Shown here one piece after another: positions 43,211-45,879 of a stretch of DNA of 64,000 bases. Position 1 is the stretch's first letter, and every line of letters starts with the position of its first letter. This stretch comes from Sulfuriferula sp. AH1 (GTDB lineage Bacteria; Pseudomonadota; Gammaproteobacteria; Burkholderiales; Sulfuriferulaceae): positions 1,922,001 through 1,986,000 of the forward strand of contig NZ_CP021138.1 in NCBI RefSeq assembly GCF_002162035.1, read 5' to 3'. Below the pieces are notes generated by a model that had not been told where the DNA came from, did not search any database, and saw only the letters and a list, made by a program, of their open reading frames with translations. Position numbers and translations under genes: made by a program.

Positions 43211-43912
43211 TCAGCTGTGGATACGAATGACCATGCCGTCAGTCTTGACCTGACGCGGCCATAACACCGGCCAGATACGCCAGGCAAACACCCACAGCGA
43301 CGACCAGATCAATAGCCCTCCTGCCACGATCACGGCATACCATCCCGCCAGGAACCCGACCGCGTAGGCGATCATGCCGGCATGGGCCAGCCCCATCTGC
43401 AGCCACGGCCATATCCCCATCCGGATCGGGTTGGCGGTAAATCGCGGCAGCATATGCGCGCCCAGCCCGTACACCAGCATGAGCATGAACCCGACCGTCA
43501 CCAGATGCAGCGCGACCGGGCGGGTCGGCCCATCGGACAGCAAGGCGCCATTGACGATCAGGCCGATACCGCCCAGCATCAAATAGATCATCGCGGCGAC
43601 GATAAACAGGCGATTGTCCAGCGACAGCGCGATGCCGGCATTCTGCATGTCGCTCTGCGCTTTCGCCGGCGCGCTGGCCACCCACTCACGCGCCTGCGCC
43701 AGCGTATGCACGCCCAGGCCTTTCAGCTCGTCGTCGATGACCAACGCGGGTATGGTCTTCAGCCGCAACCGGCTCACCAGCGCCCGACCTTCCGGCTGCG
43801 CCATGTCCACGACGGCAAAATCAATCTGCTTTTCCTTCGCGATCTGTTGCCAGATTTTTTCTTCCTGATGACAGGATGCGCACCATTCCGAAACCAGTAA
43901 TTCGACTTTCAT
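43211..43912 (-). CDS. Thioredoxin-like domain fused to an NnrS/heme-copper-oxidase-like membrane domain
   Basis: A 233 aa fusion. The N-terminal ~80 residues have a thioredoxin fold with EWCASCHQEE (CxxC at about 11 and 14) and the cis-Pro segment KTIPALVIDDE; no signal peptide precedes them, so the domain is cytoplasmic. Four membrane helices follow (about 100-230), with HLVTVGFMLMLVYGLGAHML then PRF, strongly resembling the neighbouring 131 aa protein and the NnrS/oxidase subunit I style of His-containing helices. AGGAG six bases upstream favours ATG 43912 over ATG 43918. Last gene of a three-gene unit. A thiol-redox link to a heme or metal membrane site is inferred. Confidence 0.8.
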   Translation of the reverse strand: MKVELLVSEWCASCHQEEKIWQQIAKEKQIDFAVVDMAQPEGRALVSRLRLKTIPALVIDDELKGLGVHTLAQAREWVASAPAKAQSDMQNAGIALSLDNRLFIVAAMIYLMLGGIGLIVNGALLSDGPTRPVALHLVTVGFMLMLVYGLGAHMLPRFTANPIRMGIWPWLQMGLAHAGMIAYAVGFLAGWYAVIVAGGLLIWSSLWVFAWRIWPVLWPRQVKTDGMVIRIHS

Positions 43913-43921
43913 CGTCATCTC

Positions 43922-44368
43922 CTATTGCTGGCAGCGCATGCACTGCACATCGTAACGGTCTATCCAGTTCTTGAGCGCCTGCTGCGCCGCTGCCCCGGTA
44001 GTCAAATGATCCAGCGCGGTCGCCGGATCGTCCGGCCGCATCTGTACCAGCCAGGCATCCTTGTACGGATCGATATTGATCAGATTCGGATTCGCCAGCA
44101 CCGTCTCGTTGCGCGCCACGATTTCGCCCGCAAACGGCGCAGGGATACCGCCCGCCCACTTGCCCGACTCGATGCGCGCCAGCGGCTTTTTCCATTCGCG
44201 GTGCGTGCCCACGTCCTTTATCCACACGTATTGCACCTTGCCCGACATTGTCTGCGACGGATCGGTCAGGCCAATGGTATAGATGCCGCCTTCTTCCGGG
44301 CGCACCCAGACATAATCCAGATCGTAATAAAGATCTTCCGGCAATTCACAGCCACGATGTTCAGACAT
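43922..44368 (-). CDS. GcvH-like lipoyl carrier protein with C-terminal CxxC
   Basis: A 148 aa protein with the glycine-cleavage H fold: YVWVRPEEGGIYTIGLTDPS, then the lipoyl hairpin RIESGKWAGGIPAPFAGEIV with Lys 70 at the lipoylation position. It differs from true GcvH: about 20 residues longer, Gly-Lys-Trp around the lysine, and a C-terminal extension ending CMRCQQ (Cys 143 and 146). No gcvP, gcvT or lipoate ligase gene lies nearby, so a role outside glycine cleavage is likely. GGAGGTGCATC precedes the ATG. It sits between two membrane-protein genes; LbpA-like carriers in sulfur oxidation are a known precedent for such duties. Confidence 0.82.
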   Translation of the reverse strand: MSEHRGCELPEDLYYDLDYVWVRPEEGGIYTIGLTDPSQTMSGKVQYVWIKDVGTHREWKKPLARIESGKWAGGIPAPFAGEIVARNETVLANPNLINIDPYKDAWLVQMRPDDPATALDHLTTGAAAQQALKNWIDRYDVQCMRCQQ

Positions 44369-44381
44369 GATGCACCTCCAC

Positions 44382-44777
44382 TTATTTCCACGGGCCGGTA
44401 GGCCGCACGGTCAGTCCTATGTTCACGGCAAACAGGGCGATACCCGCGTACGCCAGCACGCCGCCTGCCAGCACCAGCCAATTGAGCATCGTTAACCAGC
44501 CTGCTATCATGACCGGCAAGCCGAGGTTGGCCAGATACAGCTGCCAGTTCGCCATGCGTTCCGAATACAGCGCCCGTCCGGAAAAGCGCGGCAGCACATG
44601 CAGCGCCACGCCGTAAATCATCATCAGAACAAAACCCAGCAACATGATATGACCATGAATACGCGGCACGTTACCCGGAATCAGGCCCGGCATGGTCAGA
44701 TGCGTCAGTGCAACCAGACCGCCGAGCAAGCCGTAGACAAGACCGATACTGACAAACCAGCGATTGCGCTTATGCAT
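44382..44777 (-). CDS. Small four-helix membrane protein, heme-copper oxidase subunit I / NnrS-like
   Basis: A 131 aa integral membrane protein with about four helices. Histidines lie inside or at the ends of helices (RIHGHIMLLGF, MMIYGVALHVLPRF), the pattern used to bind heme or copper in oxidase subunit I and NnrS, but the protein is far too short for either (about 400-480 aa). It shares the GF-x-LMxxYGxxxHxLPRF pattern with the fusion protein two genes on, so the two may form one complex. GGGAGAG before ATG 44777. First gene of a unit with an FNR-type site upstream. Confidence 0.78.
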   Translation of the reverse strand: MHKRNRWFVSIGLVYGLLGGLVALTHLTMPGLIPGNVPRIHGHIMLLGFVLMMIYGVALHVLPRFSGRALYSERMANWQLYLANLGLPVMIAGWLTMLNWLVLAGGVLAYAGIALFAVNIGLTVRPTGPWK

Positions 44778-44806
44778 GTAAACTCTCCCTTTAACTCGAC
44801 GATTTC

Positions 44807-44848
44807 AGCATAGCAGATTTAATTTTTTAACGCCTTGACCTGGATCAA
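44807..44848 (-). promoter_or_regulatory. FNR/DNR box placed as a class II activator site
   Basis: TTGACCTGGATCAA (44835-44848) differs from TTGAT-N4-ATCAA at one base. On the minus strand TATGCT (44812-44807) is a plausible -10, giving a start near 44800. The box centre (44841.5) is then 41.5 bases upstream, the standard position for FNR-class activation. The same box ends 3 bases before the regulator's ATG (44852), where it would also cover that gene's ribosome site region and could give autoregulation. Confidence 0.7.
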
Positions 44849-44851
44849 TTC

Positions 44852-45529
44852 ATGCTCATCAACCCCGACATCAAGGATTTCCGCCTCGCCCACCTGTTCC
44901 GCGACCTCGAGCGCGAGGTACTGGCACAAATCGCGCGGCATGCGGTCTGGCGCGAGCTCGACGCCGGCGAACCGCTGTTTGCCAGAGGCGATGCCGGCAA
45001 GTATTTTTTTCTGGTAAAAACCGGCGCAGTTAAACTGTTTTTATTATCCGAAGACGGCGAGGAGCACATCATGGAGATCATCGGCCGCGAACGCCTGTTC
45101 GCCGAAGCAGTGATGTTCATGGGCGGCAGTTACCCGGTATATGCCACTGCACTGGAACCGAGCCGGCTGATCGCATTCGACGCACAATTCTTCGTCAGCC
45201 TGTTGCGCAACAATTCCAGCCTGTGCCTTACCCTGCTCGCCGCCATGAGCCGGCAGATGCATGCGCTGGTTGCCGAAATCGACCGCCTGACCCTGCAAAG
45301 CAGCGCACGCCGCCTCGCGCAATACCTGCTGGCGCAACCGGCGCACAAATCGGGGAGCAGCCGCCAGGTAGCGCTCCCGGCATCCAAGCAAACCATCGCC
45401 TCATTGCTGGACATCCGCCCGGAAACGCTGTCGCGCCTTCTCGCCCGACTGACTGATGATGGCCTGATCGCCGTCCATGCCGACAGCATCACCATCCTGC
45501 AACCGACACTCTTGGACCAAGTATTGTGA
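44852..45529 (+). CDS. Crp/Fnr family regulator, DNR-like
   Basis: A 225 aa regulator with a cyclic-nucleotide-fold sensor domain (LFARGDAGKYFFLVKTGAVKLFL), a dimer helix and an HTH with PASKQTIASLLDIRPETLSRLL. The ETLSR recognition residues match FNR/DNR-type readers of TTGAT-ATCAA. FNR's N-terminal cysteine cluster is absent, so it is not an O2-sensing FNR; DNR-type heme/NO sensing is the best guess. ATG 44852 has no clear ribosome site because an FNR-type box ends at 44848. It diverges from the lipoyl/thioredoxin operon and is coupled to the DUF1971 gene behind it. Confidence 0.85.
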   Translation: MLINPDIKDFRLAHLFRDLEREVLAQIARHAVWRELDAGEPLFARGDAGKYFFLVKTGAVKLFLLSEDGEEHIMEIIGRERLFAEAVMFMGGSYPVYATALEPSRLIAFDAQFFVSLLRNNSSLCLTLLAAMSRQMHALVAEIDRLTLQSSARRLAQYLLAQPAHKSGSSRQVALPASKQTIASLLDIRPETLSRLLARLTDDGLIAVHADSITILQPTLLDQVL

Positions 45530-45537
45530 GCCTGCCG

Positions 45538-45879
45538 ATGAAACCCATGCCACCCGACTTTATCGCCTATAAACGCACCCGCAACTTTACCGATACCGAC
45601 CTCCCCGAATCGCTGACCCGACGCCACGACACCAAGCCTGGCGCCTGGGCCAAAATCATCGTGCTGGAAGGTGCGCTGGATTACGAAATCATGACCGAGC
45701 CGCCCCGGCATTACCGCATCGATGCCGATCATCCCGGCATCATCGAGGAGCAGGTGCCGCATCGCGTCACGCCCGTTACCGTGCCGCTCAGTTTCTATCT
45801 TGAATTCTACAAACGTAGCGACACCGATGCCGCGACTCTGGCGCGCCCTATGGACACCGGCCTGTTCAAGCCCGAGTAA
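45538..45879 (+). CDS. DUF1971 domain protein (TehB N-terminal-like)
   Basis: A 113 aa cupin-like protein: [57 protein letters not shown] and [15 protein letters not shown]1971 proteins are related to the N-terminal part of some TehB proteins, and I recall them among DNR/FNR-controlled NO-response genes. Function is not settled. A GTG at 45526 overlaps the regulator's TGA, an alternative start adding four residues; either way it is translationally linked to the regulator. Confidence 0.8.

Follow-up and report, generated by a model that had tools for sequence, protein, structure and literature searches.

A predicted lipoyl carrier with a thioredoxin and a DNR-class regulator: a conserved cassette in Sulfuriferula sp. 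AH1 and its possible role in stress

The GcvH2 cassette and its conservation

Why does the 2.9-Mb genome of Sulfuriferula sp. AH1, which has a separate GcvH on another branch of the family tree and two lbpA genes in a shdr-type cluster, encode one more GcvH-like protein beside a thioredoxin? The question is raised by a stretch of 64,000 nucleotides (hereafter the window, C1:1922001-1986000), in which a three-gene minus-strand unit encodes a four-helix membrane protein (MP131), the GcvH-like protein (GcvH2) and a thioredoxin-membrane fusion (TRXM), and diverges from the genes for an ETLSR-type Crp/Fnr regulator and a DUF1971 protein. That GcvH2 forms a branch of its own and belongs to a conserved cassette is, in our judgement, which is also the source of the other odds given for single steps, almost certain. 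The best overall explanation of this cassette is a DNR-activated dithiol-relay stress system, to which we assign a probability of about 0.5. The features concerned, with their positions in the window, are:

43211-43918, minus strand: TRXM, thioredoxin-membrane fusion, 235 aa (open reading frame list; PF13192, 1e-9)
43922-44368, minus strand: GcvH2, GcvH-like, LbpA-related predicted lipoyl carrier, 148 aa (PF01597, 6e-33)
44382-44777, minus strand: MP131, four-helix membrane protein, 131 aa (COX1 match below the curated cut-off)
44807-44812, minus strand: candidate -10 hexamer TATGCT (sequence and spacing to the box)
44835-44848, read on the minus strand: FNR/DNR-type box TTGATCCAGGTCAA (9/10 consensus positions)
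44852-45529, plus strand: DNR-class Crp/Fnr regulator, 225 aa, containing PETLSR (closest solved protein DNR)
45526-45879, plus strand: DUF1971 protein (TehB-N-like), 117 aa (PF09313, 9e-20)

On the minus strand the order is MP131, GcvH2, TRXM, with intergenic gaps of 13 and 3 bases, and the DUF1971 gene overlaps the divergent regulator gene by 4 bases; an earlier note on this DNA, made from the letters alone, had the set of genes and its coordinates right.

When GcvH2 was used to scan the collection of species genomes for sequences carrying an exact peptide pattern, 69 loci were recovered: 37 at 55-97% identity (L007-L043), one partial copy at a contig end (L075), and 31 at 34-40% identity (L044-L074) that we take as canonical GcvH. 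The closest named match comes from a Sulfuriferula metagenome-assembled genome (97% identity). GcvH2 occurs in 14 of the 17 other genomes of the genus, in 18 of 369 genomes of a class-level sample (E 6e-72 or better, with LbpA-like matches clearly separate at 2e-44 or weaker), and in 2 of 398 genomes of a phylum-level sample, one of these being the window's own.

Fifty-two loci, distinct by exact GcvH2 DNA and including near-identical copies, were scored as a single panel. A thioredoxin is encoded within 1.5 kb of GcvH2 in 47 of them, 30 times as a membrane fusion and 17 times as a free thioredoxin with a hemerythrin; a hemerythrin lies within 3 kb in 34 loci, and a regulator similar to that of the window within 3.5 kb in 31. 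In architecture A (30 loci) GcvH2 is accompanied by MP131 and by the thioredoxin fused to a four-helix domain, and in architecture B (20 loci) there is no membrane part and a hemerythrin stands within 3 kb, with a free thioredoxin within 1.5 kb in 17. The two other loci, L128 and L133, have a similar regulator only, to which L133 adds a globin and a reductase. As GcvH2 has the membrane pair or a hemerythrin beside it in 50 of 52 loci and a thioredoxin in 47, the association is above chance, and the conserved neighbourhood that the earlier note had proposed to look for is present. The controls scored were the 31 canonical GcvH loci, mostly from Actinobacteria and hence a weak control, and none of the scored partners was found in them. 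Of the 18 carriers in the class sample, 11 match MP131 strongly (2e-46 or better) and the other 7 have no such match. The second architecture goes beyond the earlier note, and that a hemerythrin replaces both membrane parts around the same carrier and thioredoxin is, in our judgement, the most telling fact of all. Some Acidithiobacillus genomes (loci L025-L027, L029, L030 and L032) have near-identical GcvH2 copies: the genome with L025 has three, and those with L027 and with L030 have two; in L014 (8550-9213) the fusion is matched as two overlapping pieces, as if its frame were broken.

In a tree of 112 proteins, read for branches other than the deepest ones, all 52 GcvH2 rows form a single branch (94/96), which is sister to one of the two lineages into which LbpA of sHdr sulfur oxidisers falls (97/94; LbpA-type labels were assigned here by position and similarity). 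The branch in turn splits into 30 rows (96/77), all of architecture A, and 22 rows (86/95), comprising all the others. The kinship to LbpA that the earlier note pointed to holds in the form of a separate sister branch outside both LbpA lineages. GcvH2 has a Lys at position 70 within ESGKW, Cys7, and a C-terminal C143-x-R-C146; in a 20-row alignment Lys70, C143 and C146 are invariant, the Lys and the CxxC having been picked out in the earlier note. The acceptor Lys is present in all 53 GcvH2 sequences (the 52 and that of the window; 51 times as ESGKW, twice as ESSKW), as are an N-terminal GC and the C-terminal CxRC, and a C-terminal CxxC is absent from all 46 LbpA-type and 14 GcvH sequences compared. 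LbpA was described by Cao et al. by a Lys and by two Cys, one N-terminal and one C-terminal, the Cys being absent from GcvH (PMC6067878). With the acceptor Lys and both terminal Cys positions, plus one Cys more than the LbpA proteins compared, GcvH2 has the sequence hallmarks of LbpA. It falls outside the genomic definition, as it lies at 1.92-1.99 Mb, far from the shdr-type cluster with its two lbpA genes at C1:350001-370000 (L076), and in the tree it has its own branch. An identity as canonical GcvH was rejected on the NCBIfam scores (82 against a cut-off of 115.85 bits, and 110.1 against 117), the tree and the CxRC motif.

The L076 cluster also encodes, after the two lbpA genes, a LipS1-like protein, a lipoate ligase, a flavoprotein and a LipS2-like protein, in that order. 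One radical-SAM protein matches LipS1 best (6e-59; 200 bits against an NCBI cut-off of 230) and another LipS2 (1e-58; 198 against 270), the ligase matches PF21948 at 3e-48, and a flavoprotein of the geranylgeranyl-reductase type occupies the place of lipT. This is the order lipS1-slpl(AB)-lipT-lipS2 that has been named for Thioalkalivibrio (PMC10332631), so the window's genome possesses machinery for lipoylating an LbpA-like protein. GcvH2 is in all likelihood lipoylated, most likely through this ligase together with the LipS1/LipS2 set. Carriers of GcvH2 tend to have LbpA as well: an LbpA-type match (E<=1e-35) is found in 16 of the 18 carriers and in 10 of 351 non-carriers (Fisher p 2e-19, uncorrected for kinship), and likewise in 23 of 27 genomes of a set that was reached via 27 of the 37 loci and overlaps the class and genus samples.

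The regulator, its box and the membrane proteins

The best solved relative of the regulator is P. aeruginosa DNR (3dkw, 3.6e-37), ahead of the best FNR (5e-11), and since it contains a single Cys, an FNR-type cluster held by four Cys is excluded; the earlier note had placed it in the same class. DNR binds nitric oxide (NO) through heme and activates at sites of the form TTGAT-N4-ATCAA. The box TTGATCCAGGTCAA lies 57 nt upstream of the MP131 ATG and 3 nt upstream of the regulator ATG, with the TATGCT hexamer 22 nt away, a spacing of box to -10 that fits the rule for class II activators. In 26 of 29 architecture A loci the start codon is preceded, at 45-70 nt, by a box that agrees with the consensus at 8 or more of 10 positions (9 or more in 21 loci, all 10 in 11), the count omitting L021 and L035, which have no full MP131 start, the partial L075, the duplicate L130, and L145, which has no GcvH2. 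The three A loci missing the box are L019, L022 and L036; as a control, 1.5% of 8400 random places in the A loci reach 8/10. What the earlier note had suggested as FNR/DNR control is thereby anchored to the box at 44835-44848 and to its near-constant distance.

Eighteen of the 22 non-A loci have a box of at least 9/10, situated before GcvH2 at 497-552 nt in 8 loci, at 64-362 nt in 4 and at about 2.2-2.45 kb in 6, and in all 6 distant-box B loci it starts 100-124 nt ahead of the globin match. No such box was found near L025, L026, L027 and L034; the number of 9/10 boxes expected by chance is 0.06 per 5 kb by mononucleotide shuffles and a few tenths per 5 kb by the scaled random-place control. 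Taken together, these data make it very probable that the cassette is under DNR-type control. The globin goes with a 2Fe-2S/FAD reductase near GcvH2 in 6 B loci and in L133; in L029, for example, the order is globin, reductase, thioredoxin, hemerythrin, GcvH2. For A. ferrooxidans, Rodionov (2005) predicted DNR control of an operon, cgb-COG0543-COG0446, that neighbours a paralogue of dnr (PMC1274295); its cgb-COG0543 pair is apparently the same globin-reductase pair as in the B loci. In pyrite biofilms of A. ferrooxidans a globin (AFE_0861), which may be that of the B loci, was the most increased protein (PMC6450195).

TRXM has an N-terminal thioredoxin domain (WCASC, residues 12-16) and a C-terminal four-helix membrane domain, with helices predicted between residues 100 and 219. 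C13, C16, H138 and H155 are invariant in the 20-row alignment, and all 20 fusion members match PF13192, as expected of a thioredoxin-fold CxxC protein. MP131 has invariant H2, H41-x-H43 and H60. The motif GF-x-LM-x2-YG-x3-H-x-LPRF, noticed earlier in both proteins, is indeed common to them, and a profile-profile comparison (E 9e-22) shows MP131 to be a paralogue of the TRXM membrane domain. At E<=0.01, COX1 is matched by 21 of 21 MP131 members, and NnrS by 7 of 21 MP131 and 8 of 20 fusion members. The proteins of the window score below the cut-offs of the whole families: MP131 reaches 29 against 34.8 bits for PF00115, over positions 346-399 only, and the fusion 15 against 28 bits for PF05940. 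A model of MP131 (mean pLDDT 75) has as its best solved fold match the nitric oxide reductase (NOR) 4xyd (TM 0.70); for the model of the fusion, Foldseek ranked mostly thioredoxins or thioredoxin fusions highest, which is uninformative on its membrane domain. H41-x-H43 of MP131 aligns with the HxH of CcoN from the genome's cbb3 oxidase (E 1e-4, probability 55%), an HxH which we take to hold hemes in such oxidases. MP131 aligns to a different helix pair of the genome's second oxidase (L159; E 8e-4, probability 24%), which fits internal repeats, if weakly. Judging by a modest Lys/Arg pattern, the two termini would face the cytosol, and the thioredoxin with them. The membrane proteins are four-helix units distantly related to the heme-copper oxidase/NOR family and to NnrS, MP131 being a single-repeat relative of the former.

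Further relatives of the membrane part were encountered elsewhere. L031 encodes a 420-aa membrane protein, called NnrS-like, with no Pfam match at 0.01 and an hhalign E of 2e-6 to the fusion domain. L196 (G147:C35:8000-24000) has an MP131-like gene (51% identity) without GcvH2 or thioredoxin, neighboured by a similar Crp/Fnr regulator, a hemerythrin, a DUF2249 protein, an NnrS-like gene and cytochrome-d1 genes. L197 (4456-5507; matching stretch L198 5384-5629) encodes a 173-aa MP131 relative with AHTHINLLGW that exceeds the COX1 cut-off (61 against 34.8 bits), and its neighbours are a thioredoxin-like protein bearing CTVC, several small cytochromes c, and an oxidase subunit of full length (468 aa). 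Here a single-repeat protein of the heme-copper type has a thioredoxin-like neighbour in another genomic context. The L196 cluster and the L197 relative support the link of the membrane part to oxidases and to NO.

As to the flanks of the cassette, DUF1971 recurs next to the regulator in L007 and next to the cassette in L139, and its membership in the module is uncertain. Downstream of the operon lies a catalase gene (window 40689-42194), with a convergent phosphatidylserine decarboxylase gene (42363-43202) in between.

Possible roles of the cassette

In the explanation we prefer, GcvH2, as a lipoylated carrier of the LbpA type, would move reducing equivalents in the cytosol as lipoyl dithiol/disulfide, and its CxRC would mediate disulfide exchange of the lipoyl arm with the thioredoxin encoded nearby. 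This thioredoxin may then give electrons to, or accept the oxidising equivalent of, a metal site with a diatomic gas as ligand, namely an HxH heme in the MP131/TRXM pair (architecture A) or, in architecture B, a di-iron hemerythrin. The most parsimonious chain would be lipoyl arm, CxRC, thioredoxin CxxC, and heme or di-iron centre, an exact order that we put forward with considerable doubt. What has been observed is the order of the genes, the clade with its motifs and partners, and the class and box of the regulator; the heme or metal content, the direction of thiol transfer and the substrate we infer. The purpose would most likely be the removal of NO, or of S-nitroso or HNO species, which are toxic to lipoyl arms and to Fe-S enzymes, those of the sHdr pathway among them; for NO or reactive nitrogen species (RNS) as the purpose we see an even chance. 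NO with reduced lipoate yields HNO (PMC10444860), and RNS adducts modify and block lipoic arms (PMC9974485), which makes a lipoyl carrier of this special kind, under NO-type control, reasonable in chemical terms. The earlier note had already read the unit as dithiol transfer from a lipoyl arm via CxxC and thioredoxin to a heme or metal site in the membrane, induced by low O2 or NO; neighbourhood, regulator class, box, kinship to LbpA, CxRC and the distant heme-copper oxidase/NnrS kinship largely support this reading on the genomic side, whereas its chemistry is unproven.

Several observations weigh against the preferred explanation. The fold match of MP131 to 4xyd has an E of 0.06 and is not significant by that value, and no solved structure matches MP131 by sequence at E<=0.1. 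Five of the 52 loci have no thioredoxin within 1.5 kb (L028, L033, L038, L128 and L133), three of 17 genus-mates (G372, G381 and G385) have no GcvH2 and retain the LbpA pair, and the order-mate G399 retains a similar regulator, MP131 and the fusion without GcvH2. At the G399 locus (L145 8107-9957), a similar Crp/Fnr regulator is divergent from MP131 and a thioredoxin-membrane fusion with a CPFC active site, and GcvH2 is thus not indispensable to the membrane pair. The signal could also be different, as a DNR-class protein could sense O2 instead. The window's genome has three perfect TTGATNNNNATCAA sites, none of them at a recognised NO gene, with one-mismatch sites, to which the window's own belongs, unsearched genome-wide; judged by translations, we take these sites to lie before flagellar-type genes, within a ribosomal protein gene and within a secretin-like gene. 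A DNR regulon in this genome was rejected on the lack of a perfect TTGATNNNNATCAA site at an NO gene.

The NO-related gene content speaks weakly against NO as well. We compared 28 genomes, 18 GcvH2 carriers and 10 with LbpA only: NirS (E < 1e-50) is found in 1 of the 18 carriers (G156) against 3 of the 10, and above-cut-off NirK in 1 of 18 (G019) against none of 10. The NirS limit was chosen by us, as the PF02239 cut-off also admits weak partial matches; left uncounted were those in carriers G121, G151, G236 and G358 (8e-8 to 1e-5) and in the LbpA-only G033 (8e-11), and still weaker ones in G019 and G035. Sizeable TIGR02376 matches, below the cut-off, occur in the carrier G191 (5e-50) and the LbpA-only G296 (2e-46). 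With strong NirS and NirK matches this rare in carriers, we rejected an accessory function in denitrification as the general role. Full-length NnrS is encoded by 10 of 18 carriers, and among the LbpA-only genomes by 7 of 10; as it is no commoner in carriers, a dependence on NnrS is rejected for want of association, which is a weak point against NO. In the window's genome neither NirS nor NnrS finds a match, NirK is matched weakly at best (51 against 296 bits), and no NOR is evident, both full-length PF00115 proteins matching CcoN best. One of these two oxidases (L159, G000:C1:2110909-2112162), followed by a 456-aa cytochrome-c-type open reading frame, is far under the ccoN cut-off (154 against 583 bits). 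The inducing signal could be external or chemical NO, for example from nitrite in acid, or low O2.

Low O2 is also the setting of the first rival, by which GcvH2 would let electrons leave the oxidation of sulfane sulfur through its lipoyl arm, CxRC, thioredoxin and membrane hemes to a quinone or oxidase, in the manner of a dithiol:quinone oxidoreductase. The co-occurrence of GcvH2 with LbpA fits such a route, as do the His residues that are invariant close to either end of helix 2 in MP131 and the fusion, the suggested cytosolic placement of the thioredoxin and FNR-type boxes, which are compatible with low-O2 control. We nevertheless regard it as unlikely, because cassettes of architecture B have no membrane part but hemerythrin only, globin and reductase neighbours indicate gas handling, and G399 has the membrane pair without GcvH2. 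Alternatively, the lipoyl arm of GcvH2 may carry sulfane sulfur and serve to rebuild Fe-S clusters damaged by NO, with the help of thioredoxin and of a di-iron protein that would donate the iron. The LbpA relatives belong to a sulfur-oxidising system (PMC6067878), RIC repair proteins are among the hemerythrin-like proteins (PMC9268430), and a hemerythrin is frequently close to GcvH2 (34 of 52 loci, as above). Yet the four hemerythrins scanned are only 156-170 aa long without a further above-cut-off Pfam domain, the hemerythrin is not inside the architecture A operon, and CxRC with a thioredoxin favours redox over sulfur transfer, making repair quite improbable. That GcvH2 is a redundant H protein of glycine cleavage, or a lipoyl storage or relay protein, that came by chance into an anaerobiosis operon accords with its matches to PF01597 and the GcvH models; given its scores below the NCBIfam cut-offs, another GcvH in the genome, the invariant CxRC and the recurring neighbourhood, we consider this very improbable indeed.

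Relation to known systems and significance

The dithiol-relay cassette resembles several known systems without coinciding with any of them. With LbpA1/LbpA2 of sHdr (PMC6067878, PMC10332631), GcvH2 shares GcvH-likeness, the ESGKW Lys, terminal Cys and mostly the same hosts, but it differs in its own clade, the extra Cys making CxRC, the DNR-type box, the thioredoxin and hemerythrin or heme-type partners, and the location outside shdr. Compared with the NnrS (PF05940)/DNR/NnrR/NsrR regulons, the cassette has a DNR-class regulator, the box and a weak membrane-domain similarity in common, whereas its membrane domains have four helices (NnrS spans 371 positions) and a fusion to thioredoxin, and the operon includes a lipoyl carrier. 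Relative to the heme-copper oxidase/NOR family, MP131 covers the PF00115 segment with the HxH and has NOR 4xyd as best fold match, but at 131 aa it is about a quarter of the enzyme, below cut-off and without the His-His pair. NO detoxification of the Hmp/Cgb type (globin with FAD/2Fe-2S reductase) is represented beside GcvH2 in the 6 B loci with the box before the globin and in L133; globin and reductase are, however, outside the conserved core and absent from the neighbourhood of the window. The GcvH-L/SirTM system offers, as we understand it, another second GcvH-like lipoyl protein that works outside glycine cleavage and is linked to stress, as GcvH2 would be. Its sirtuin, macrodomain and ligase (PMC4518038) were absent from the Pfam-scanned genes of the window, with no wider search made. 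In the open-access PMC literature, judged by titles and abstract openings, no description of the cassette was found.

Few lipoic-acid-dependent systems are known (PMC10332631). GcvH2 adds one more lineage to the relatives of LbpA, set in a DNR-type cassette, and there is a real chance that it belongs to a new lipoyl-dependent system. Tentatively, and at somewhat less than even odds, this might be a new class beside 2-oxoacid dehydrogenases, glycine cleavage and sHdr, in which a carrier with a built-in CxRC relay and its own thioredoxin would power NO/RNS reduction or capture at an interchangeable metal site, either a single-repeat membrane pair of the heme-copper type or a hemerythrin, switched on by DNR. 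The two unrelated, likely gas-binding partners, a heme-type pair and a hemerythrin, around the same carrier and thioredoxin amount to a natural experiment. If the explanation is true, it would account for an extra LbpA-like gene outside the shdr cluster in a subset of sHdr sulfur oxidisers, and the reactivity of the lipoyl arm with NO would have been turned into a function by a carrier that has its own thioredoxin and answers to an NO-type regulator. The cassette suggests that lipoic acid has a further, new role in the response to NO or low oxygen.

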